A stretch of DNA of 64,000 nucleotides. Origin: Acidobacteria bacterium Ga0077534 (GTDB lineage: Bacteria > Acidobacteriota > Blastocatellia > Pyrinomonadales > Pyrinomonadaceae). Location: positions 1-64,000 of the forward strand of contig LNEI01000026.1 of assembly GCA_001464455.1 (NCBI GenBank). Reading direction: 5' to 3'. How positions within the stretch are numbered: position 1 is the first letter of the stretch; every line of letters starts with the position of its first letter. A program made the position numbers and the translations under genes. A model generated the notes under the pieces. That model was given only the letters and a program-made list of their open reading frames with translations. It ran no database searches and was not told where the DNA came from. Positions 2,885 to 12,869 of the stretch are shown here, piece by piece.

Positions 2885-3580
2885 CTAACGAATGATATTT
2901 GGCATGTTAGCCGGGAAGCGGCGACCGCCGGGAATCACCCTTCCCGTTCCGGTTCCGCGAAAAAGAGGCGTGTAGACCCAACGCGAATGATTTTCGATAC
3001 CGTAATAGGCGATGATCGATTTTGCTTTGCTTTGGCTCGCTACCCCGATAAAGGGCGTATTTTCGGTCAAGATCTCTATACCCTCATCATCAGGGTCTTC
3101 GATCTCGCCTTCGATCTCGGTATTCAAGGCGCTGACCACAACTACGCCATAGCGATCAAGCGTTGAGCTGGCGTTCGGAGGAAGTTGGCCGCCGTAGTAT
3201 GCCTGGACCCGCTTTGCGAACGGACCGAGTGTTGTAACGTCTGCCTTTATCAAACGCCACTTGCCATCCTCGCTCAACGGGTCGATAGCGGCTGACGCAC
3301 GAAGGATCTGACGTTTTTTAGTGCCTTGGGGTAAGCCTTCGAGAAGATCGTCCATTGAGGTCGGGAGCCGCGATCCACGATAATAATCTACATACTGTCG
3401 GATCGCATCGGCTACCTCTTCACCACGACGGATGGACTCGAGTTCTTTTTCTCTCTGGATCTCTTGATGTATCGACGGAGCAACAGCCATCAGCCCGACT
3501 GCAAAAACAACCATCATTGCCATGACCGCCAAGAGCGTCATGCCACGTTCGCTGCTATGGTTTTTCATTGTCGTCGACAT
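2885..3580 (-). CDS. Type II secretion/type IV pilus pseudopilin-like protein
   Basis: 231 residues. A class III signal is visible: a short leader ending RG, then MTLLAVMAMM and a hydrophobic helix, with cleavage predicted after Gly13. Position +5 of the mature form is Ala, not the usual Glu, as seen in some minor pseudopilins. The helix is followed by a GspG-like region with an SRLPTSMDDLL stretch and a KRQ/W-R block. It is the last gene of the pilN-pilO-PilP-like operon and its start overlaps the preceding gene by 26 nt. A role as minor pseudopilin or assembly factor is inferred. M5 (3568) is an alternative start. Confidence 0.75.
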   Translation of the reverse strand: MSTTMKNHSSERGMTLLAVMAMMVVFAVGLMAVAPSIHQEIQREKELESIRRGEEVADAIRQYVDYYRGSRLPTSMDDLLEGLPQGTKKRQILRASAAIDPLSEDGKWRLIKADVTTLGPFAKRVQAYYGGQLPPNASSTLDRYGVVVVSALNTEIEGEIEDPDDEGIEILTENTPFIGVASQSKAKSIIAYYGIENHSRWVYTPLFRGTGTGRVIPGGRRFPANMPNIIR

Positions 3581-4634
3581 CGTCTTTTGAATTTGGCGGC
3601 GGCCTTCTCTGCACGTCCGGCCGAGGTGGCTGTGGCTGAGGGATCATCCCGGGGCGAGCCTGACTGCCAGGCGGCATTCCTGGCTGCATGCCCGGTGTGT
3701 AAGGTATGAATCCGCCTCCCGGAGGCGCACCGCCCGGACCGGCTGAAGCCGCTGTGACCATAGCGATCCGATGCTTAAAGCCGAGAGACGTGTCCTCCAC
3801 AACAACTTCCTGTGATGATATATCGACGACGCGAAATCTCCCGCCGATCACATCGTTTAAGCGTGCCCCGAACGGTGTCTGTTTGTTTGCCTCTAAGAAA
3901 TACGCCGTATCGTTGTTGTAGCGCGTCCTGCCGATCATACCGATGTACTGGAAGTTCGTCGGCTTGGGCGGCGGCATGATGGTCATGGTGAAACCGGCAG
4001 AATAAAGACGGCCGTCGGGCGTCTGTACGTTGATCTGCTTTCCGCCTTCCTGCGCGACCATTGACTCAGGGATCATTGCCGAAACCGACTGAGGGCTGAC
4101 GAACTGGGTCGGCATCTCGGTCTGGTTGAAATAGATGCGAGCGTCGGGCGTGAATTCTCCGCCGAAGACCTCTAGCTTAAAAGCCCCCTTAGTACCCGCA
4201 TAACGCATGGTCGGCGTTACCGAAGCTATGGTGAACGGCGGCGGCGGCGGCGGAACAGGTGTCGGAGTCGGTGGCGGCGGCGTAGCCGGCGGTGGAACGT
4301 ATGGTGTTGGCTCAGGCGGCTCGTAAAACGCAAAAATATTTCGTCCCGCATCTGGAGCTGAGCTGCTGGCCGGATTGTAAGCAACCGGAACGATCATATT
4401 AAGGTCGTCCTCGGTTTTCGAAGGTAAACGGAACTGAGTATTATTGGCCGCCGTTGTGGCCGGGGCCTTTGGCGACGGCGATGGTGACGCCTTTGTTGTC
4501 GCAGTCGTGGTAGATCCACCAATAAAGCTGCGGCCGAACGCCATATAGAGTGCGACAAGCGATACCACCCCGAGCACTGCCGCGGCGATGATCTTTTTCT
4601 TTTCAGCTGGAGATTTTCCTTCGAGTATTGCCAT
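3555..4634 (-). CDS. PilP/GspC-like inner-membrane protein with IPT/TIG domain
   Basis: 359 residues. Order: short cytoplasmic tail, one transmembrane helix at about 14-34, a low-complexity region, a long Pro-rich stretch (about 105-135) able to span periplasm, an IPT/TIG-like immunoglobulin fold (about 137-215), then a small beta domain around YIGMIGRTRY and FRVVDISSQEVVVED that resembles the PilP/GspC homology region, and a Pro/Gly-rich disordered tail. PilP and GspC link inner-membrane assembly platforms to the outer-membrane secretin. The gene abuts pilO with no spacing (TAAATG), fitting the pilN-pilO-pilP order. The IPT insertion is not part of classical PilP. Confidence 0.65.
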   Translation of the reverse strand: MAILEGKSPAEKKKIIAAAVLGVVSLVALYMAFGRSFIGGSTTTATTKASPSPSPKAPATTAANNTQFRLPSKTEDDLNMIVPVAYNPASSSAPDAGRNIFAFYEPPEPTPYVPPPATPPPPTPTPVPPPPPPFTIASVTPTMRYAGTKGAFKLEVFGGEFTPDARIYFNQTEMPTQFVSPQSVSAMIPESMVAQEGGKQINVQTPDGRLYSAGFTMTIMPPPKPTNFQYIGMIGRTRYNNDTAYFLEANKQTPFGARLNDVIGGRFRVVDISSQEVVVEDTSLGFKHRIAMVTAASAGPGGAPPGGGFIPYTPGMQPGMPPGSQARPGMIPQPQPPRPDVQRRPPPNSKDDVDDNEKP

Positions 4635-5519
4635 TTACTGCGTCACCGGAGCGATGCCCGGACGGCGGAAGTATGCCGCCATCTCTATCCTTAAAGTTAC
4701 CGTCTCGCCGTGCTTCTTTCCTTTGAATCTGGAGGAATTATCTTGAACTGGAGCCGCGGGCTGTACCATCATCGGCATGCCCGTAGTCGGGTTTATGGTA
4801 GTTTCGCCAGAGGTTTGCGTCCTGGTTTCTGCGTTCGACCGGCTCTTGTCGCCTTCGGAGGGGACAAGTTCAACTGCACTTACTATCACGAACTCGCGCC
4901 CCGTCTCGATCTCGCGGATAAACCGCCGTAGGTTTTGGTAGCTCCCCTCGAGACTTGTTGTAACGTAAACACCAGGATACAAGCTTCGGAACTTTGCTCT
5001 TCCACGCTCCTCTTGTGTCTCGGTTCCGGAGTTCGCATCGATGGTTTCGAGCGGCACATAATCAGGCCCCGACGTATTGATCAACCCATAAGCTCGTATC
5101 AGGCCGTTCAATCTCTGGTACAGAGCCGCCTGGCCATTTGCCGTTACTGGCAAAAACCTCGCTTCAAAATTGTCGATGCTTTCAACGATCTTCGTGACCT
5201 GCGTCTGAGAATCAGTTATCTCGCCGTATTTTCCTTTAGCTGAGATCAGTTCGGCCTCTAGCCGGTCAGCCTCGGACCGATTCTTGATGAGTTCCCGGTT
5301 CGACGGAACCACCCAGAAAAAGTAAGCGACCAACGCCATGATCACGGCAAGTCCACTGACCGCGACTGCCCCTATCTCTGGTGGCCCCCACATTCCGGCG
5401 TAGACCTTTCGCGGGCGGTTGGGCGGTATGGTGTTCCATTGGTGCTCAGTAACCAGCTCAGTTTCCTGACCCTCAAACACCACTGCGGTATCCATCTGCT
5501 TCTGTTCCAGTTCAGCCAT
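4635..5519 (-). CDS. pilO: PilO-like type IV pilus alignment protein
   Basis: 294 residues with a roughly 45-residue cytoplasmic N-terminus, one transmembrane helix at about 46-70, a coiled coil (NRSEADRLEAELISAKGKY region) and a periplasmic ferredoxin-like region ending in a fold with EIETGREFVIVSAVEL. This is the PilO layout. PilO pairs with PilN to form the alignment subcomplex between the inner-membrane platform and the secretin. The start overlaps the pilN stop (TAATG), so translation is probably coupled. A Ser/Thr/Gln-rich insertion near residues 220-260 is variable sequence. Confidence 0.75.
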   Translation of the reverse strand: MAELEQKQMDTAVVFEGQETELVTEHQWNTIPPNRPRKVYAGMWGPPEIGAVAVSGLAVIMALVAYFFWVVPSNRELIKNRSEADRLEAELISAKGKYGEITDSQTQVTKIVESIDNFEARFLPVTANGQAALYQRLNGLIRAYGLINTSGPDYVPLETIDANSGTETQEERGRAKFRSLYPGVYVTTSLEGSYQNLRRFIREIETGREFVIVSAVELVPSEGDKSRSNAETRTQTSGETTINPTTGMPMMVQPAAPVQDNSSRFKGKKHGETVTLRIEMAAYFRRPGIAPVTQ

Positions 5520-6148
5520 TATTGTGCGTTGCCTCCCTGGATATTTTGAGCGACATCGGACGAGGGCGGAGCTGAGGAGTAGCCGTAGCCCGGCGTGTAG
5601 ATCACGCGGAATGTGTATTCAGTGAACGTGATCCGCTCGCCTTTTTGAAGATCCTGACCGCGAAGCTCTGCCAAAAAGAGCCCCGAATTGTTCATTCGCT
5701 CGATCATTACCATCACCGCCGGATAATCGCGGCTGATGACGCCAAGTTCGAGTTCAGCTTTTAGACGGTCACCGTCCTGATAGATATTTTCGACGCCAAT
5801 TCTAGATGCAGAAACACTCGGCGGCAGGACGGTCTCCAGATCGGCGAATAGCCTCGACCACCCGAATGATTTATTCGCGACCAGCTTATGAGATGCCGTA
5901 AGCAAGGATCGCTGGTCGGGGGTGAGGAGCTGCTGTACCTTTTCGCCTTCACCCTTCAGTTTCGATATTTCGCCTTCTCGTTCCTGAATTGCTTTTACAA
6001 GCAGATCATTCTTATCGCGGTTTTCACTGAGCTTGGCAATGCAATAGACGCCGCCGAACGCACTGATCACAAGCAAAAAGCTCGCAAAAAGATACGGAAG
6101 CACCCTGTTCCGAAAGGGATGGGTCGAGAGATTTAACTTCGTTATCAC
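5519..6148 (-). CDS. pilN: PilN-like type IV pilus assembly protein
   Basis: 209 residues starting at GTG (6146-6148). The N-terminus INLSTHPFRNR-like (KLNLSTHPFRNR) is the conserved cytoplasmic motif through which PilN contacts PilM, followed by one transmembrane helix (about 18-38), a coiled coil and a periplasmic domain. First gene of the four-gene pilus operon. No pilM lies upstream, where an FHA-GGDEF gene is found instead, nor is pilQ here, so the rest of the machine must be encoded elsewhere. Confidence 0.75.
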   Translation of the reverse strand: MITKLNLSTHPFRNRVLPYLFASFLLVISAFGGVYCIAKLSENRDKNDLLVKAIQEREGEISKLKGEGEKVQQLLTPDQRSLLTASHKLVANKSFGWSRLFADLETVLPPSVSASRIGVENIYQDGDRLKAELELGVISRDYPAVMVMIERMNNSGLFLAELRGQDLQKGERITFTEYTFRVIYTPGYGYSSAPPSSDVAQNIQGGNAQ

Positions 6149-6259: not shown

Positions 6260-7192
6260 TTAATCGCGGCGAGGTGGAAGGTGACGGTTTAGCTCTTCTG
6301 GAGTCATGTCCCGATATGCGGCAACGCGGTTGCGGCCTTCCCTCTTTGCTCGGTACAGGGCCGAATCGGCCATTTCAACGAGCTCGATTGGATCTGACGA
6401 GTCATCGGGAAAAGATGAGACCCCGATGCTCACAGTTATATGGTGAGTTTCCCTGTTCTTACCTTGCCGGAGAACACTGAATTCGTATTTTTCTATGCTT
6501 GAGCGAATACGCTCTGCCGCTGTCAGGCCTTGAGGCAGGTCTGCGTCGAGCAGGAAGGCAGCAAATTCATCGCCGCCAAAACGTGCCGCTGCGTCCCCGC
6601 TACGCAGGTTTGTCATTATGGAAAAGCCGATCTCTTCAATAGTCTTGCTACCGGTCAGGTGGCCATAACTATCGTTTACACTTTTGAAATTGTCACCGTC
6701 CATCATTATCACGCAGAATGGGCGGTTTTCCGCGGTCGCACGCCCAGCCTCGCGCCGGAGTTCAGAGAAAAAAGATCGACTGGAAAGGAGTCCGGTAAGG
6801 TCGTCGTGGGAGATCAATCGATGGATCTGGCGTTGATATTCGCGATCGATCTCGTCGAGCAGGTCAAATCTTAGGATCGTTTCTCCGATCGTGATCTTGT
6901 CTCCGTTTTGCAGCGTTTCGCGGCGGACACGGACACCATTGAGAAAAGTCCCATTTCGCGAGGCGAGATCGGTTAAGACATATTCGGTCGAGCTTTTCGT
7001 TTCGCCTTTTACTGCTGTTACCTTGGCATGCTGTCTAGAGACTTGCGTATCGTTCACACGAACGTCGGCCTCGAGAGCCCGACCGAGAATTACATCCTCA
7101 CGCTCAAGCGGGATCGGAACGGCTATCAATTCACCGCTCAGGAAAACAAGCGCGGGCTTCAAGTCCCGGCGTATCATCTCGGAATCGTTCAT
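6260..7192 (-). CDS. FHA-domain diguanylate cyclase (GGDEF)
   Basis: 310 residues, cytoplasmic. An FHA domain at about residues 30-110 shows the GR, SRQHA and NGTFLNG signatures for phosphothreonine binding. A GGDEF domain follows at about 125-295 with an intact GGDEF active site. An RSGD lies five residues upstream, the RxxD inhibitory c-di-GMP site, so the enzyme should be active and product-inhibited. It makes c-di-GMP from two GTP. Its place just upstream of the pilus operon, and a PilZ-domain gene at 27.6 kb, suggest control of pili or surface behaviour, perhaps with input from Ser/Thr kinases through FHA. Confidence 0.9.
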   Translation of the reverse strand: MNDSEMIRRDLKPALVFLSGELIAVPIPLEREDVILGRALEADVRVNDTQVSRQHAKVTAVKGETKSSTEYVLTDLASRNGTFLNGVRVRRETLQNGDKITIGETILRFDLLDEIDREYQRQIHRLISHDDLTGLLSSRSFFSELRREAGRATAENRPFCVIMMDGDNFKSVNDSYGHLTGSKTIEEIGFSIMTNLRSGDAAARFGGDEFAAFLLDADLPQGLTAAERIRSSIEKYEFSVLRQGKNRETHHITVSIGVSSFPDDSSDPIELVEMADSALYRAKREGRNRVAAYRDMTPEELNRHLPPRRD

Positions 7193-7287: not shown

Positions 7288-9816
7288 TTATTTCTCACTT
7301 CCAAAACGCTTTACTTCAGCCGGTGTTGGAATGACGGCCAGCAATACATCAGCTGTTTCGCGGCCTGCGAAAGACTGCACACCAGTAGGTTTTGTCGCGG
7401 GAATCATTTTTTCAGGCAGTGTCTTTTCGTCGATATAGAAGATGTGTTCACCCGGCGGGAGGTCGGCAACGGTGAAGTTGCCGTCGCTATCGCTCAGCGT
7501 GTCTCGTCCGCTTGCGGTCACTATGCGAACGTCAGCGAGCGGGGACTCGCCCTTGTCGAATACTCCGTTTCCATTAGTATCAAGCCATACACGTCCGGTC
7601 ACACGTCCGGTCCGCACAAGGCGAAAGTCGAATTGGGTAGTCCTTCCGGGTTCAAGGATCAGATTGCGGGCACCCGAGTCGAGGAGCGTTAGGTCGGCAC
7701 GGACTGACAAAAGGTCGACATAAACCTTTCGCTCGCCCGACTGTAGAGCGTCGAAGGCGAATAGTCCATTGACATCGGTTTCGACGTATCGGTTTCCGTC
7801 TACTCGGACCTTAACGTTAGCCTGCGGCTTGTCGACGGCCGCGTCGTATTTTCCGTCACCATCGATGTCCTGATAAACCCGTCCAGAAACGCGGCTGAAG
7901 CTGTTTACCTCCGATGGAAGCGAATCTAAATATGCAGTTGCGTCGCGCTTGCGAAACAGGAGACCACGAAGCTTGACCAGGATCGTTGGCCCGGCACTTG
8001 TGTTGAGATAGTTGACCTGCAGCATCGATTCGCGTGGCAGATTAATATTCGCGCTCAACTTCTGATACGACGTGATACCGCCGCTCGGGTTGTAATTGTA
8101 ACCAAGCCCAGCTGCAAGGTTAATACGGTCGCTGAAGAAACGATTTGTGCGCCATTCAATGAGACCGTTCGAGGATCTTTGGCTCGCAAATCCCTGATTA
8201 AGCTCGATCGTGTTTCGATCGTTTACTTGAACATTTGCTCCGACCTGAAAGTTTGCCGATGCTGGGCCAAAGTTCTTGACCCGGCTCGCGTTGCCGAAAA
8301 GTCGCACCCGCTGAAAATTCTTCGAGACGTTTAACAGCGTGAACTCGCCTTTCCTGAAGTTCTGTGAGCTACTTTGCGTGTGTGAGATGTAAAAGGTCGG
8401 CTTATTCCCCCCTGGCGAGATCGCTACTGAGCTGGATATATAGCTCTCTGCGGATCCAACCCTGTTGGGTCGCTTTGTCGAACTCGCGGTAAGAGAGGTC
8501 GTCAGCCATTTCGTTGGCGACCAGGCAACACCGCCAGCCTTTAGATCGACCGGCTCTTTGCTGCCGGTCTGTGGAGCGAGAAAACTTGATCCGACATGAG
8601 CAAATCTAGCCTGAAACGATAGGTTCTCAGTCACTTGATAGGTGCCGGAAACCTCGAACGCGGCACCAGGACCATCGACGACACTGCCGTCATTTCGCGT
8701 TCCGCTGAACTGCCCAAACCCGACCTCAGTTTGAAACTGAGCCCTTCGTCCACCGAAATTAAAGCTTGTAGCAGCGACGTTTCCGGTTCGTCCTGAGCCT
8801 GAGAATCTCATGCCGCCCGCCGTGACGATCAGTGGCTGGAGGGGCCCGGAACCGAAAGGCTTGGTCGTCGTTGTGACGCCAAATATGTTCGTATCACGCG
8901 AATATCCAACGACTGTCGTGCCCGGCTCATCAAAAGTTCCGCCTCTCGTCGGGCTGCCCGAATTTGCTCGTCCCCCAAATGCGGCAATAGTGAAGTTTCC
9001 GACTGGAATACTAACCAATCCTCCGCGGACGTTTGAGGCTATAAGCTGCAATCCAGCAGCAGCACCGAGGTCGCCGGCAATATAGTTGTGCCCGTTTGGA
9101 CGTTCTAGATTGAACGTGAAATTACGCGGGGAAAACTTTCCTATCGAACTTGCAGATGAGTTTGAGACAAGACTGAACCGCCCATCGCCGAGACGGCCGA
9201 TGGCATTGATCGAAAGGTCGTGCGAGTTTGATGAAAAATAGCGATTTAGATTGTATTCGTATTCGGCAAGATATATCTCACCGATACCCCGTTTTTCCTT
9301 CTGTTGGGTTACTATCCCGGCTATTCCACGCCCTATCTGAACAACGTTCTTTTCCTTTTCAAATCTGATCGAGACTCCAAACAGCGGTGAAACGATCTCA
9401 ACGGGGAGCATCAGTTCGTCAAGGAACGGGGAAATGACGATCTGCCCCGGGTTTGAGATCGAAAGGACTGCCGAACCGTTTTCGAATACCTGGCCGCTGC
9501 GAGCGTCGAATGCGGTTCGAACACCGGTTTGGAGTAGCACGGAGAGCGAGCTGTTTGCGGTGTCGATCAAAACCGAATCACCCAGTGCGCGGGCTATGGC
9601 GGCAATCGGAATGTACAGACGCCCGTCGCGCATCTGGGCGGCGCTATTCGGCCCGGTTAAAGCACGACCATTGACTACGATCGTCGAAAACCCGACCTGC
9701 GTTTTCGCTCCGGATGCTGATCGTGTATCCCGATCTGACCTGTTGTCTATGGCCGGTGCGAGGCGCACCAAGGCCATCAGCATCAGGAGGGCCGGAATCA
9801 GGAATAGCGGTTTCAT
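7288..9816 (-). CDS. Usher-like outer-membrane barrel protein with stalk and SdrD-B-like domains
   Basis: About 842 residues from ATG 9816; the ORF track begins at an upstream TTG. Signal peptide at the start (KPLFLIPALLMLMALV). Residues about 45-165 look like a duplicated copper-amine-oxidase N-terminal-like stalk domain (RLYIPIAAIARALGD, LMLPVEIVSPLFG). Then come about 450 residues of alternating polar/hydrophobic strands typical of an outer-membrane barrel, including GDLGAAAGLQL..VRGG, loosely like the GD..F..RG motif of fimbrial ushers. The C-terminus has two SdrD-B/Cna-B-like domains starting GRVYQDIDGDGKYD and GRVWLDTNGNGVFD, with calcium-loop-like DxDGDG and DTNGNG. Position after a chaperone and three subunits suggests a secretion/assembly pore; this role is inferred. 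Confidence 0.6.
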   Translation of the reverse strand: MKPLFLIPALLMLMALVRLAPAIDNRSDRDTRSASGAKTQVGFSTIVVNGRALTGPNSAAQMRDGRLYIPIAAIARALGDSVLIDTANSSLSVLLQTGVRTAFDARSGQVFENGSAVLSISNPGQIVISPFLDELMLPVEIVSPLFGVSIRFEKEKNVVQIGRGIAGIVTQQKEKRGIGEIYLAEYEYNLNRYFSSNSHDLSINAIGRLGDGRFSLVSNSSASSIGKFSPRNFTFNLERPNGHNYIAGDLGAAAGLQLIASNVRGGLVSIPVGNFTIAAFGGRANSGSPTRGGTFDEPGTTVVGYSRDTNIFGVTTTTKPFGSGPLQPLIVTAGGMRFSGSGRTGNVAATSFNFGGRRAQFQTEVGFGQFSGTRNDGSVVDGPGAAFEVSGTYQVTENLSFQARFAHVGSSFLAPQTGSKEPVDLKAGGVAWSPTKWLTTSLTASSTKRPNRVGSAESYISSSVAISPGGNKPTFYISHTQSSSQNFRKGEFTLLNVSKNFQRVRLFGNASRVKNFGPASANFQVGANVQVNDRNTIELNQGFASQRSSNGLIEWRTNRFFSDRINLAAGLGYNYNPSGGITSYQKLSANINLPRESMLQVNYLNTSAGPTILVKLRGLLFRKRDATAYLDSLPSEVNSFSRVSGRVYQDIDGDGKYDAAVDKPQANVKVRVDGNRYVETDVNGLFAFDALQSGERKVYVDLLSVRADLTLLDSGARNLILEPGRTTQFDFRLVRTGRVTGRVWLDTNGNGVFDKGESPLADVRIVTASGRDTLSDSDGNFTVADLPPGEHIFYIDEKTLPEKMIPATKPTGVQSFAGRETADVLLAVIPTPAEVKRFGSEK

Positions 9817-9840
9817 GGCTTCGAAATATATCGACAAAAG

Positions 9841-10689
9841 CTACGGCTTCTTAGGCTGGTTGCCTGAGTTTGCGATTTGCGGTGCGGGGTTAATAACTAG
9901 GTCGGTAACACCTTCGGTAGGGGGGCGCCCGTCTTTGAAATCGATCCTATATTTGACCGTATACTTTCCAGCAACAAGTTCCTTTTCGATCTTGGTTGGC
10001 TTTGCGGTTTCAGTGTTCGCAAGTATCGGCAGGATCTCCGATTCAGGAACATCAGCAACCGCTCTGCCCTCCGCATCAAAGACCGAGATCGAGGCTGTTG
10101 GACGAATGACACTGTTTCCTTCGTTCCTCAGTTTGGGCGTGACGGTTACGCCGCCGTCCTTTGCCTCGGCGATTAAGTCGCCGAATTCGCCCTTCCGGGT
10201 GAGCTTTCCAACCTTGATATAGAAGACTGACGCGAGGCGATAGCGGACAACGATCTGCTTCGAGTTTTGAGCAAACTTTAGCGTGTCAGCCCTCTGCTCG
10301 ATGATCAACGCTGCAAGATGATCGCCAGCCGCCGCATTAGCGGGAACCGAGACGGTTACGCGGATAGCGTGCGGGACATTTGGTGATACAGCAGCCTCGC
10401 CCGGCGTGTAGATGAGCCACGGGCTTGCTGAGTTCGGACGGGTATTTGCGGGAAAATATTCAACGAGGCCTTCCTTACTTATTGTCCAGTCATTTAGTGT
10501 CGCGACGATGCGAACCGGCTTGGCGACTGCGTCTTCGGCCTTATAGTCGAGGTTGAGAACGACGGTTGTCTCCGTTCCCGGCATCATCTCAAGCTCGAAG
10601 CGGGCAGGTGATAACGCCATGCTGCCGCTCTGCCCAAAGGCTGCGGAGGTTAATAGAAGTACAAATAATGAAATGAGAAGTTTATTCAT
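9841..10689 (-). CDS. Periplasmic pilus-chaperone-like protein (PapD-like fold)
   Basis: 282 residues with a signal peptide (LLISLFVLLLTSAAFGQ). The N-terminal part (MALSPARFELEM then a TVVLNLDYKA strand, ASPWLIYTP, VPHAIRVTV) reads like the first Ig-like domain of fimbrial chaperones. A second beta domain follows, containing VRYRLASVFYIKVG. In chaperone/usher systems this protein donates a strand to subunits in the periplasm and delivers them to the usher. It sits between the subunit genes and the usher-like gene, 24 nt before the latter. The classical Arg/Lys anchor pair could not be assigned with confidence. Confidence 0.65.
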   Translation of the reverse strand: MNKLLISLFVLLLTSAAFGQSGSMALSPARFELEMMPGTETTVVLNLDYKAEDAVAKPVRIVATLNDWTISKEGLVEYFPANTRPNSASPWLIYTPGEAAVSPNVPHAIRVTVSVPANAAAGDHLAALIIEQRADTLKFAQNSKQIVVRYRLASVFYIKVGKLTRKGEFGDLIAEAKDGGVTVTPKLRNEGNSVIRPTASISVFDAEGRAVADVPESEILPILANTETAKPTKIEKELVAGKYTVKYRIDFKDGRPPTEGVTDLVINPAPQIANSGNQPKKP

Positions 10690-10710
10690 GACAATTTGTT
10701 GATGCGGTGC

Positions 10711-11385
10711 TTAGCAAACAAGTGCGGGCCCGGAACCTATAGTGAAGGTAACAGTTGTGCTGTTGCTGCCCGCAGCATAAAACTGCGGGGTCATTACAAA
10801 GATGACGTTGATTATCCAGCCATTGTCGGTTCGTCGGCTAGCGTTGATACGGGAAAGTGTGGGTCCGCTAAGAATAACGGTCGAACCAGTGACCGTCGCA
10901 AGAGACGAAACATAGGATATTCTTCCTGCGGCATTCGTGGTAATTCCAACTGCGGGATTCGCCGTGATCGCCGGATTGTATGTATCGGGGGTCGAACAAG
11001 TTTGCGAGCGATTTCCCATTTGTGTAAATGTTCGTTCGAGGCCGAAGCCAACGTCTGAACGCTGCAGAGCCTGGGGATCGACGTTGGTACCACCGGAGAC
11101 CGAAACCGATACTTGATAGGCGGCGACGCTGCGTATCGCGATTGGTACATTGGCTGTTATGATCCCGTTGGTGTTTGATGGGGACACTTCTCCCCAATTG
11201 ATGGTAACGCTCAGGTTGGTCACCGTGCTCGAAGTGCCAACGATCGATCCGCCCTGTGATCCGATCAGGGTCGGCAAGCCTCCACTCGAAATGTCGAATG
11301 TTTGAGCCGCTACAACACCGGCAGTAACGAAAACAAACACGACGATGCGAAGCAAACCACTAAGCTTTGTATTTGAACTGATCAT
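10711..11385 (-). CDS. Fimbrial-like subunit 3 (divergent, possibly minor or tip)
   Basis: 224 residues with a signal peptide. It shares with its two upstream neighbours the pattern (V/I)xxGE(L/V)xPSNTxxxxTAxxP, a DVGFGL motif, and a closing xPQFYxxG...TVTFTI strand pair, but is otherwise diverged. It has a Cys pair region (SQTCS) and a C-terminal Cys that the other two lack. The start overlaps the preceding stop (ATGA), so it is translationally coupled to subunit 2. Divergence and position suggest a minor, adaptor or tip subunit; this is inference. Confidence 0.6.
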   Translation of the reverse strand: MISSNTKLSGLLRIVVFVFVTAGVVAAQTFDISSGGLPTLIGSQGGSIVGTSSTVTNLSVTINWGEVSPSNTNGIITANVPIAIRSVAAYQVSVSVSGGTNVDPQALQRSDVGFGLERTFTQMGNRSQTCSTPDTYNPAITANPAVGITTNAAGRISYVSSLATVTGSTVILSGPTLSRINASRRTDNGWIINVIFVMTPQFYAAGSNSTTVTFTIGSGPALVC

Positions 11386-12089
11386 GGTGCTGAGATCGTG
11401 AAGGTAGCGAGAACAGTCGTCGTCCCATCCTCGTAGAACTGAGGCTTAATAGCAAAAATTGCGGGTAGAGTGAGGCCGTTCGTGTTGCTTCGAGGAACGG
11501 CGTTCATGACGAACGAACCCGTTAATGCGGTGGTCGCTGCTGCAAATGATCCAAGATGCGAGCGAATGGCGGTGAACTGATACCGTCCGGTCGTAGCGTT
11601 CACGGAACCGTTGGATGCGAGGGTCGGATCACCGGATGTTGCGTTGGTATCCGTTCCGCCGGTATTTACGCCGATGCCGGTTCGCGAGATAGTTCCGAGT
11701 CCGAACCCGATGTCGGAAGCCGTGATCCGATTCGCCGTAGTCCCGGTGCTTGAGACCGCGGCGGACATCGTCAAAGCGTAGCTTGCGTTGGTGCGGAGTT
11801 TAAGGGGTATGCTTGCGGTAACAAAGCTGCTCGTATTTGAGGGGCCGAGTTCGCCGAGGTTTATGACAACGGCAAGAGGGTTGTTCGCTGTACCGTTGGT
11901 GGTAACGCCGCCTCCCGAGTTGCCGGTAAGCGTTACAGAGCCGCCCGAGTCCAACTCGACAAATTTTGAAACTGTGGCACTCATGTTAACGGTGCCGGTT
12001 GTGCTTTGCGACAATGCGGAAGATGCGAGTGCTACAAGAACAGCGATCGCCGCCAGGAGCAGCGAATACGCTCTACTCATTCCTTTCAT
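11382..12089 (-). CDS. Fimbrial-like subunit 2
   Basis: 235 residues: signal peptide (about 1-27), then a beta-rich, Thr/Ser/Asn/Gly-rich domain. Conserved blocks are VSKFVELDSGG, VVINLGELGPSNTSSF, SDIGFGLG and KPQFYEDG, ending in alternating hydrophobic ATFTISAP. It is very similar to subunit 1 along its whole length, indicating a tandem duplication. Such sequences fit an Ig-like subunit held by a chaperone. Alternative start at M4. Confidence 0.65.
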   Translation of the reverse strand: MKGMSRAYSLLLAAIAVLVALASSALSQSTTGTVNMSATVSKFVELDSGGSVTLTGNSGGGVTTNGTANNPLAVVINLGELGPSNTSSFVTASIPLKLRTNASYALTMSAAVSSTGTTANRITASDIGFGLGTISRTGIGVNTGGTDTNATSGDPTLASNGSVNATTGRYQFTAIRSHLGSFAAATTALTGSFVMNAVPRSNTNGLTLPAIFAIKPQFYEDGTTTVLATFTISAP

Positions 12090-12173
12090 CTAAATTTCTC
12101 CAACTAAGGTTGGTGATGCCGCCGCCGGCATGTCCTGCGGCGGCACAACCAGGCAATGGCCGTTAGGCCTAAG

Positions 12174-12869
12174 TTATGGTGCGGTTACCGTAAAAGTAGC
12201 TGCAACGGTCGTGGTGCCAACTTCATAGAACTGCGGCTTGACCGCGAAAATGGCAGGAACTGTCAGTCCGTTAGTATTGCTACGCGGGACTGCATTTAAT
12301 ATACGTGCACCGCTGAGAGCGGTTGTCGCTGCTGTGAATGCCCCCAGGTTTGACCGGGTGGCGGTGAATTCGAAACGTCCGCTGGTCGCATTTACTGCTC
12401 CATTGGCCGCGAGAGTCGGGTCTCCCGAGGTGGCATTGGTGTCGGTTCCAGTTGTATGGACCCCGACGCCGCTTCGGGTAACCGTGCCGAGACCGAAACC
12501 TACGTCAGCGGCGCCGATCTCTTCTGCTGTTGTTCCCGTGCTGCTGACCGTCGCGGTAAGCGTCATGTTGTAAGCCGCGTTGCTGCGAAGCTTGAGAGGC
12601 ACGCTTGCTGTAACGAAGCTCGATGTATTGCTTGGGCCAAGTTCGCCGAGATTGACGACGACCGCAAGCGGGCTATTCGCGGTGCCGTCCGTGGTGACGC
12701 CACCGCCGGTGTTGCCGCTTAGTGTAACGGCACCACCGGACTGGATCTCGACGAATTTCGAGACAGTTCCGCTTAAATTCACAGTGCCTGTGGTCTGCGC
12801 GTTAACGCCGACCGCAACCAGCGAGGTGAACAATACCGCTTTTACGGCTGTTGTGATGGTTTTGAACAT
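12174..12869 (-). CDS. Fimbrial-like subunit 1 (probable major subunit)
   Basis: 231 residues, first gene of the five-gene surface-fibre operon. A signal peptide ends near VNAQT. The mature part is a single beta-rich domain with VSKFVEIQSGG, VVNLGELGPSNTSSF, ADVGFGLG and KPQFYEVG blocks, ending in ATFTVTAP. No cysteine is visible in the mature part. A good Shine-Dalgarno (AGGAGT) lies upstream of the ATG. A strong-looking promoter lies about 200 bp upstream, leaving a long leader. Not a recognised DUF from sequence alone; the alternation of the last strand is typical of donor-strand-complemented subunits. Confidence 0.65.
   Translation of the reverse strand: MFKTITTAVKAVLFTSLVAVGVNAQTTGTVNLSGTVSKFVEIQSGGAVTLSGNTGGGVTTDGTANSPLAVVVNLGELGPSNTSSFVTASVPLKLRSNAAYNMTLTATVSSTGTTAEEIGAADVGFGLGTVTRSGVGVHTTGTDTNATSGDPTLAANGAVNATSGRFEFTATRSNLGAFTAATTALSGARILNAVPRSNTNGLTVPAIFAVKPQFYEVGTTTVAATFTVTAP

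Follow-up and report, generated by a model that had tools for sequence, protein, structure and literature searches.

A five-gene operon on the minus strand of contig LNEI01000026.1 of Acidobacteria bacterium Ga0077534 (positions 7288–12869 of the 64,000-nucleotide stretch analyzed here, positions 1–64,000, hereafter the window) encodes a strongly diverged usher-type barrel protein that appears to lack a plug and has a stalk-type N-terminus, a PapD-family periplasmic chaperone, and three exported subunits; such sets are widespread in Acidobacteriota and are missed by the family models. The operon very probably builds surface fibres as Escherichia coli builds type 1 pili. The chaperone homology, the usher-type C-terminal domains (CTDs), the plug-less barrel, the donor-strand-like N-termini of two subunits, and the conserved gene order lead us to read the locus, with considerable confidence, as a system for chaperone-usher fibre assembly by donor-strand exchange, in which P0003 is the tip and P0004 and P0005 are the repeating subunits. 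No description of such a system was found in the literature searched, most subscription journals lying outside the search.

Gene organization

The five genes, all identified as open reading frames (ORFs), are as follows.

12174..12869, minus: subunit P0005, 231 aa, class 1, operon gene 1
11382..12089, minus: subunit P0004, 235 aa, class 1
10711..11385, minus: subunit P0003, 224 aa, class 2
9841..10689, minus: PapD-family periplasmic chaperone P0002, 282 aa (ORF and hhalign)
7288..9816 from ATG (ORF 7288–9837), minus: usher-type outer-membrane protein P0001

All five ORFs lie at 7288–12869, where the first-pass annotation had placed a tightly spaced minus-strand gene set. The intergenic gaps are 84, −4, 21, and 24 bp, when the barrel gene is counted from the ATG at 9816. 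This start gives the 842 amino acids (aa) that had been estimated for the barrel protein, and the TTG at 9837 is a possible alternative.

Chaperone P0002

P0002 is a 282-aa exported protein with two domains. Hhalign comparisons with few sequences gave nothing clear, and wider alignments were needed. The alignment of close relatives matched FimC-type chaperones at E 2.5e-10, and the wider alignment matched FimC-type/PapD chaperones at E 3.8e-14 (probability 98%), with both immunoglobulin (Ig) domains aligned. The reversed and shuffled controls scored E 0.013 or worse overall, and 0.36 or worse for the wider comparison. In addition, the P0002-family profile picked up two Acidobacteriota chaperones that adjoin true PF00577 ushers (E 2.4e-8 and 2.1e-6), which are themselves PapD_N proteins by Pfam (E 2e-14 and 4e-14). 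Because of the FimC match and of the reach of the profile to these chaperones, P0002 is assigned by homology to the PapD family, as had been proposed. A weak match to CopC in the PDB sequence search (E 0.01) covered the second Ig domain only, and the PDB sequence searches otherwise gave nothing useful.

P0002 also shows weak matches to WxLIP_PGBD (E 0.002; 6.5e-5 for its relatives), all below the curated cut-off, which would fit a set like the WxL and WxL-interacting proteins of Gram-positive type, with P0002 as a WxLIP-like anchor that holds surface subunits without strand exchange. This possibility is very improbable: the C-terminus of P0002 has no membrane helix or hydrophobic stretch, the PapD match spans both of its domains, the set includes an outer-membrane barrel, and the subunits contained no WxL domain in the Pfam search.

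Barrel protein P0001

In the AlphaFold model of P0001, an N-terminal domain is followed by a barrel of approximately 25 strands and by a pair of sandwiches at the C-terminus. The features assigned to the protein are as follows.

9331..9687, minus: N-terminal stalk-type domain, residues 44–162 (Cu_amine_oxidN1, E 1e-7)
7960..9282, minus: beta-barrel, residues 179–619, ~25 predicted strands, no plug insertion (AlphaFold)
7612..7899, minus: C-terminal domain 1, SdrD_B-like, equivalent to FimD CTD1 (hhalign)
7843..7869, minus: DIDGDGKYD, calcium-type loop of C-terminal domain 1
7327..7611, minus: C-terminal domain 2, SdrD_B/CarboxypepD_reg-like, equivalent to FimD CTD2 (Pfam and hhalign)
7555..7581, minus: DTNGNGVFD, calcium-type loop of C-terminal domain 2

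In the fold search of the PDB, the 14 top matches by E-value were all FimD/PapC (1.9e-19 to 3.3e-8), the best of them with 931 aligned columns, and rank 15 was a streptococcal protease. By hhalign, P0001 matched ushers at E 2e-7, and its C-terminal domains are collinear with FimD CTD1/CTD2 at E 3.2e-10, whereas the reversed, shuffled, TonB, and LptD controls scored E 0.0078 or worse. The fold ranking and the CTD alignment thus support the usher-like barrel protein of the first-pass annotation.

At the sequence level, the barrel core does not resemble ushers, and TonB receptors enter the fold list from about 3e-7 (first TonB-type barrel at E 3.4e-7), as would be expected if P0001 were a TonB-type receptor, a porin, or another large outer-membrane protein beside a separate surface-protein system made up of the chaperone-like and subunit genes. 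In contrast, full-length ushers outrank all other folds by many orders of magnitude, the C-terminal domains match FimD and not FhuA/FepA/CirA or LptD, and the chaperone stays paired with the barrel protein across the phylum. Neither a TonB plug nor a TonB receptor domain was detected in P0001 by Pfam, and the hhalign comparisons with TonB receptors gave E 0.04 and 0.0078. We therefore consider a receptor or porin unlikely. None of the results that the first-pass annotation had named as refuting its reading, namely the lack of a barrel, a TonB-type fold, or a chaperone of an unrelated family, was obtained.

The two C-terminal domains are SdrD_B-like as had been described (Pfam, E 1.9e-11, two stretches). 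Each opens with a DxDxDGxxD or DxNxNGxxD loop in 8 of 8 full-length close relatives and in 0 of 15 ordinary ushers, in agreement with the calcium loops that had been called in both domains. The accompanying proposal that calcium-loop Ig domains replace the usual usher C-domains was wrong, because the domains align with FimD CTD1/CTD2 and are, as judged from their sequences, the usual usher domains with added calcium-type loops, and because E. coli EcpC itself resembles CarboxypepD_reg at the same place.

Ushers have been described as consisting of five domains, namely the barrel, the plug, the N-terminal domain (NTD), CTD1, and CTD2, with the plug as the channel gate (PMC8410936). In the model of P0001, the gaps between barrel strands are approximately 20 residues at most, which leaves no room for a plug. 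Furthermore, the plug profile had no match inside the P0001 barrel, yet it matched in the barrels of L111 and of the Acidobacteriota ushers L113 and L115. By the FimD positions in the literature, the barrel length of about 440 residues equals that of FimD minus its plug. P0001 thus appears, from its sequence and predicted structure, to have no plug, and it was classed as a plug-less variant rather than as a standard usher because it shows neither a plug insertion nor a plug-profile match.

The N-terminal Cu_amine_oxidN1 match spans the whole profile. The first-pass annotation had described a duplicated stalk domain here; the stalk assignment stands, and the duplication becomes one full-length Pfam domain that may be read, from predicted secondary structure, as two beta-alpha-beta units. 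The domain is related to the N-termini of the plugged ushers L113 and L115 (E 3.3e-5). That it is a diverged PapC_N was unsupported (hhalign to usher NTDs, E 0.11). In the related barrel proteins L047, L048, and L109, a T2SS-T3SS_pil_N domain stands at the N-terminus in place of the stalk domain, which suggests that this end is exchanged between lineages.

These comparisons also bear on the possibility that P0001 is an ordinary usher in a real chaperone-usher operon, its plug overlooked and its stalk a diverged PapC_N. The stalk and PapC_N do occupy the same place, and the barrel model is only moderate. The short inter-strand gaps, the barrel length, the lack of a plug match in the P0001 barrel where L111, L113, and L115 show one, and the stalk-to-PapC_N value all point the other way, and we give this possibility a small share of the probability, although a larger one than the receptor or porin. 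The acidobacterial source proposed in the first-pass annotation is supported; the true departures from known ushers are the missing plug and the N-terminal domain that is not detectably PapC_N, and not a replacement of the usual domains by Ig domains.

Subunits P0005, P0004, and P0003

P0005, P0004, and P0003 are beta-rich, exported, and related to one another, as had been noted from the sequence; an alignment of 21 subunits was used to compare them. P0005 and P0004 share 70% identity, and P0003 is more distant. Homologues of P0005 are present in seven other genomes (G025, G034, G141, G122, G132, G148, and G052). The AlphaFold model of P0005 is confident and beta-rich (predicted local distance difference test (pLDDT) 86.9), with the beta fold starting at residue 40. 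Two candidate donor strands precede the bodies of the class 1 subunits.

12753..12788, minus: P0005 donor-strand candidate, GTVNLSGTVSKF, residues 28–39 (profile match)
11961..11996, minus: P0004 donor-strand candidate, GTVNMSATVSKF, residues 32–43 (profile match)

Each is the top match of its protein to a donor-strand profile built on E. coli K-12 pilins, the P0005 match being equalled in 1 of 500 shuffles and the P0004 match in 24 of 500; the donor strand of YcbV, for comparison, is GTVNISGSFRRN. The P0005 segment is predicted to lie outside the beta fold. These results suggest a FimA/FimG-like donor-strand motif, as a sequence motif only, at the mature N-termini of P0005 and P0004, and P0005 is a candidate for the major pilin.

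The same profile detected no donor strand in P0003, whose best score was reached by 406 of 500 shuffles. In the alignment of subunits, P0003 lacks the N-terminal extension, so that its body begins directly, and it carries two cysteines. P0003 may be the tip subunit.

A match between subunits and pilins by hhalign at E 1e-6 was dismissed: after removal of the signal peptides, it fell to E 0.04–0.12. Homology of the subunit body to pilins by sequence is accordingly not established.

A fourth, divergent subunit type was observed near the barrel gene and on the opposite strand in relatives (L040 10872–11531, L042 7789–8361, L043 8197–8823, and L024 2482–3099). A gene of this type does not occur separately in the window genome, where only P0004 and P0005 match (E ~2e-6).

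Evidence that weighs against the assignment

Several results weigh against chaperone-usher assembly. None of the five proteins is recognized as an usher, a PapD chaperone, or a pilin by Pfam or NCBIfam; P0002 has no significant Pfam match and does not reach PapD_N directly. The barrel model of P0001 is moderate (pLDDT 71, predicted template-modelling score 0.42), and its TM-scores to FimD are about 0.3, so that the likeness to FimD is one of layout and not of fine geometry. In the fold search, barrel-only usher chains score no better by E-value than TonB receptors. When the barrel core alone was compared with ushers, the hhalign E of 0.006 did not surpass that of the TonB control, and homology of the barrel by sequence is therefore not claimed. 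For the subunits, the PDB fold matches are weak (best E 0.008, none below 0.001), although they include FimA rods and CsuA/B, and the pilin homology of the subunit body is unproven.

Further searches were negative. P0001 matched none of Usher, PapC_N, PapC_C, CooC_C, or TcfC in Pfam, a PHROGs search returned no usher, chaperone, or pilin names, and a single-sequence scan of the genome contigs gave no matches. The only regions of the operon above the curated cut-offs of Pfam were the stalk (Cu_amine_oxidN1) and the SdrD_B/CarboxypepD_reg stretches of P0001.

Proposed assembly pathway

The strand exchange, the secretion, and the gating in the pathway that we propose are inferred, as are the position of the tip and adhesion. 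P0005, P0004, and P0003 would reach the periplasm via their signal peptides, where P0002 would lend a strand and hold each incomplete Ig-like subunit. P0001, as the usher in the outer membrane, would then receive the chaperone-subunit complexes and hold the growing base with its C-terminal domains. There, the strand at the N-terminus of the next P0005 or P0004 to arrive would displace the chaperone strand in the preceding subunit, and the fibre would be pushed outward via a pore of approximately 24 strands. P0003, without a donor strand, would start the fibre and stand at its tip.

Because there is no plug, the pore must be closed by other means, perhaps by the stalk domain or by a calcium-loop C-terminal domain. 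A natural plug-less usher would mean that the gate is dispensable or otherwise supplied, and would make it possible to test directly how ushers are kept closed. More tentatively, the operon could belong to a separate, phylum-wide Acidobacteriota branch of chaperone-usher systems without a plug, in which periplasmic domains gate the pore, possibly under calcium control via the CTDs; we regard this extension as rather doubtful.

Comparison with known systems

With the classical pathway (type 1 pili with FimA-FimC-FimD; P pili), the operon shares the kinds of genes, the chaperone family, the usher CTDs, the full-length fold ranking, and the putative donor-strand motif in two subunits (P0005 and P0004). 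It differs in that Pfam detects no Usher, PapC_N, PapC_C, or PapD_N, in the absence of the plug, in the stalk-type N-terminus, and in the calcium-type loops of both CTDs. Whereas the classical adhesin has two domains, the candidate tip subunit here has a single domain.

The archaic (sigma) pathway (Csu pili, spore coat U subunits) is spread beyond Proteobacteria, with Cyanobacteria and Deinococcus-Thermus named (PMC4654587). The operon has in common with it the wide spread outside Proteobacteria and the reach of the P0002 profile to PapD_N chaperones that adjoin true ushers in Acidobacteriota (E 2.4e-8), but its subunits lack SCPU and P0001 is missed by PF00577. With the alternative (alpha) pathway (EcpA-E, CFA/I), the likeness is that the C-terminal domain of E. 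coli EcpC resembles CarboxypepD_reg (E 1.2e-4), whereas P0001 has no CooC_C or TcfC.

A second diverged group in Acidobacteriota (L115 2649–8961 and L113 4302–7841) consists of plugged ushers with a stalk-like N-terminus. These share with the operon the N-terminal domain (E 3.3e-5, as above), the C-terminal domains (E 1.9e-7), and the chaperone, but they retain the plug and have a FimD-like barrel core (hhalign E 3.8e-7). Their chaperones score above the PapD_N cut-off. With these features together, L113 and L115 form a bridging group between P0001 and known ushers. L115 differs further: its subunits are of the DUF4402 type, and it has four SPOR stretches at the C-terminus.

Distribution in Acidobacteriota

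The barrel protein was found in 4 of the 37 searched genomes of the genus (the window genome G000, G008, G025, and G034), and the chaperone in the same four. The window genome contains neither a PF00577 usher nor a PF00345 chaperone, which speaks for the assignment of the operon. In G025 and G034, all five ORFs are open and in the same order, and the neighbours ebfC and recR are kept on one side. The five-gene set also occurs in G141, G132, G148, and G122, although in some of these the barrel gene is turned round or lies at a distance, and the same kinds of genes occur in other genera of the family and in one other family of the class, the barrel gene being inverted in L040. The locus is not a chance arrangement, because the ORFs remain open and the order is kept in relatives, as the survey of Acidobacteriota suggested by the first-pass annotation now shows. 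The dN/dS ratio was saturated in two of three pairs.

A wider chaperone profile matched 41 of 396 genomes across Acidobacteriota, distributed over 25 of 210 genera. Among 20 chaperone neighbourhoods, 17 have a barrel-profile match beside or near the chaperone gene, matches that rest largely on the C-terminal domains, and 3 have a same-strand protein of 829–895 aa there, so that all 20 have a large gene on the same strand next to the chaperone gene or close by. The PF00577 model found ushers in 9 of the 297 other genomes of the phylum. The two counts, 41/396 by the chaperone profile versus 9/297 by PF00577, suggest that chaperone-usher systems are commoner in this phylum than Pfam shows, so that surface fibres of a major phylum may have been overlooked.

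In G132, the chaperone and barrel genes are present twice, on separate contigs (L042 and L044). In a genome from another family of the class (G038, contig C36, 48994–54264; L007 and L013–L020), a 2798-aa open frame with more than 10 SdrD_B-like repeats was observed, which is apparently unrelated to the operon.

Non-coding elements and neighbouring genes

Two non-coding elements were predicted at the locus.

12111..12151, minus: strong RNA hairpin in the spacer of subunit genes P0005/P0004
13076..13104, minus: candidate promoter TTGACA-N17-TAATCT, ~235 bp 5' of the first gene

The spacer has a minimum free energy of −38.1 kcal/mol (z −3.8 versus shuffles). Placed 3' of the P0005 gene, the hairpin would help to make P0005 more abundant than the other subunits. 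The candidate promoter elements recur at −256 in G025, and TTGACA likewise at −240 in G034.

Three minus-strand genes at 3555–6148 of the window lie upstream of a GGDEF gene, in a layout that resembles PilN, PilO, and PilP of type IV pili; this resemblance had no Pfam confirmation. The GGDEF gene itself (6260–7192), which lies directly downstream of the operon and adjoins the locus in G034 too, encodes an FHA-GGDEF protein (diguanylate cyclase, E 8e-40), and a link between cyclic di-GMP and fibre production is possible.

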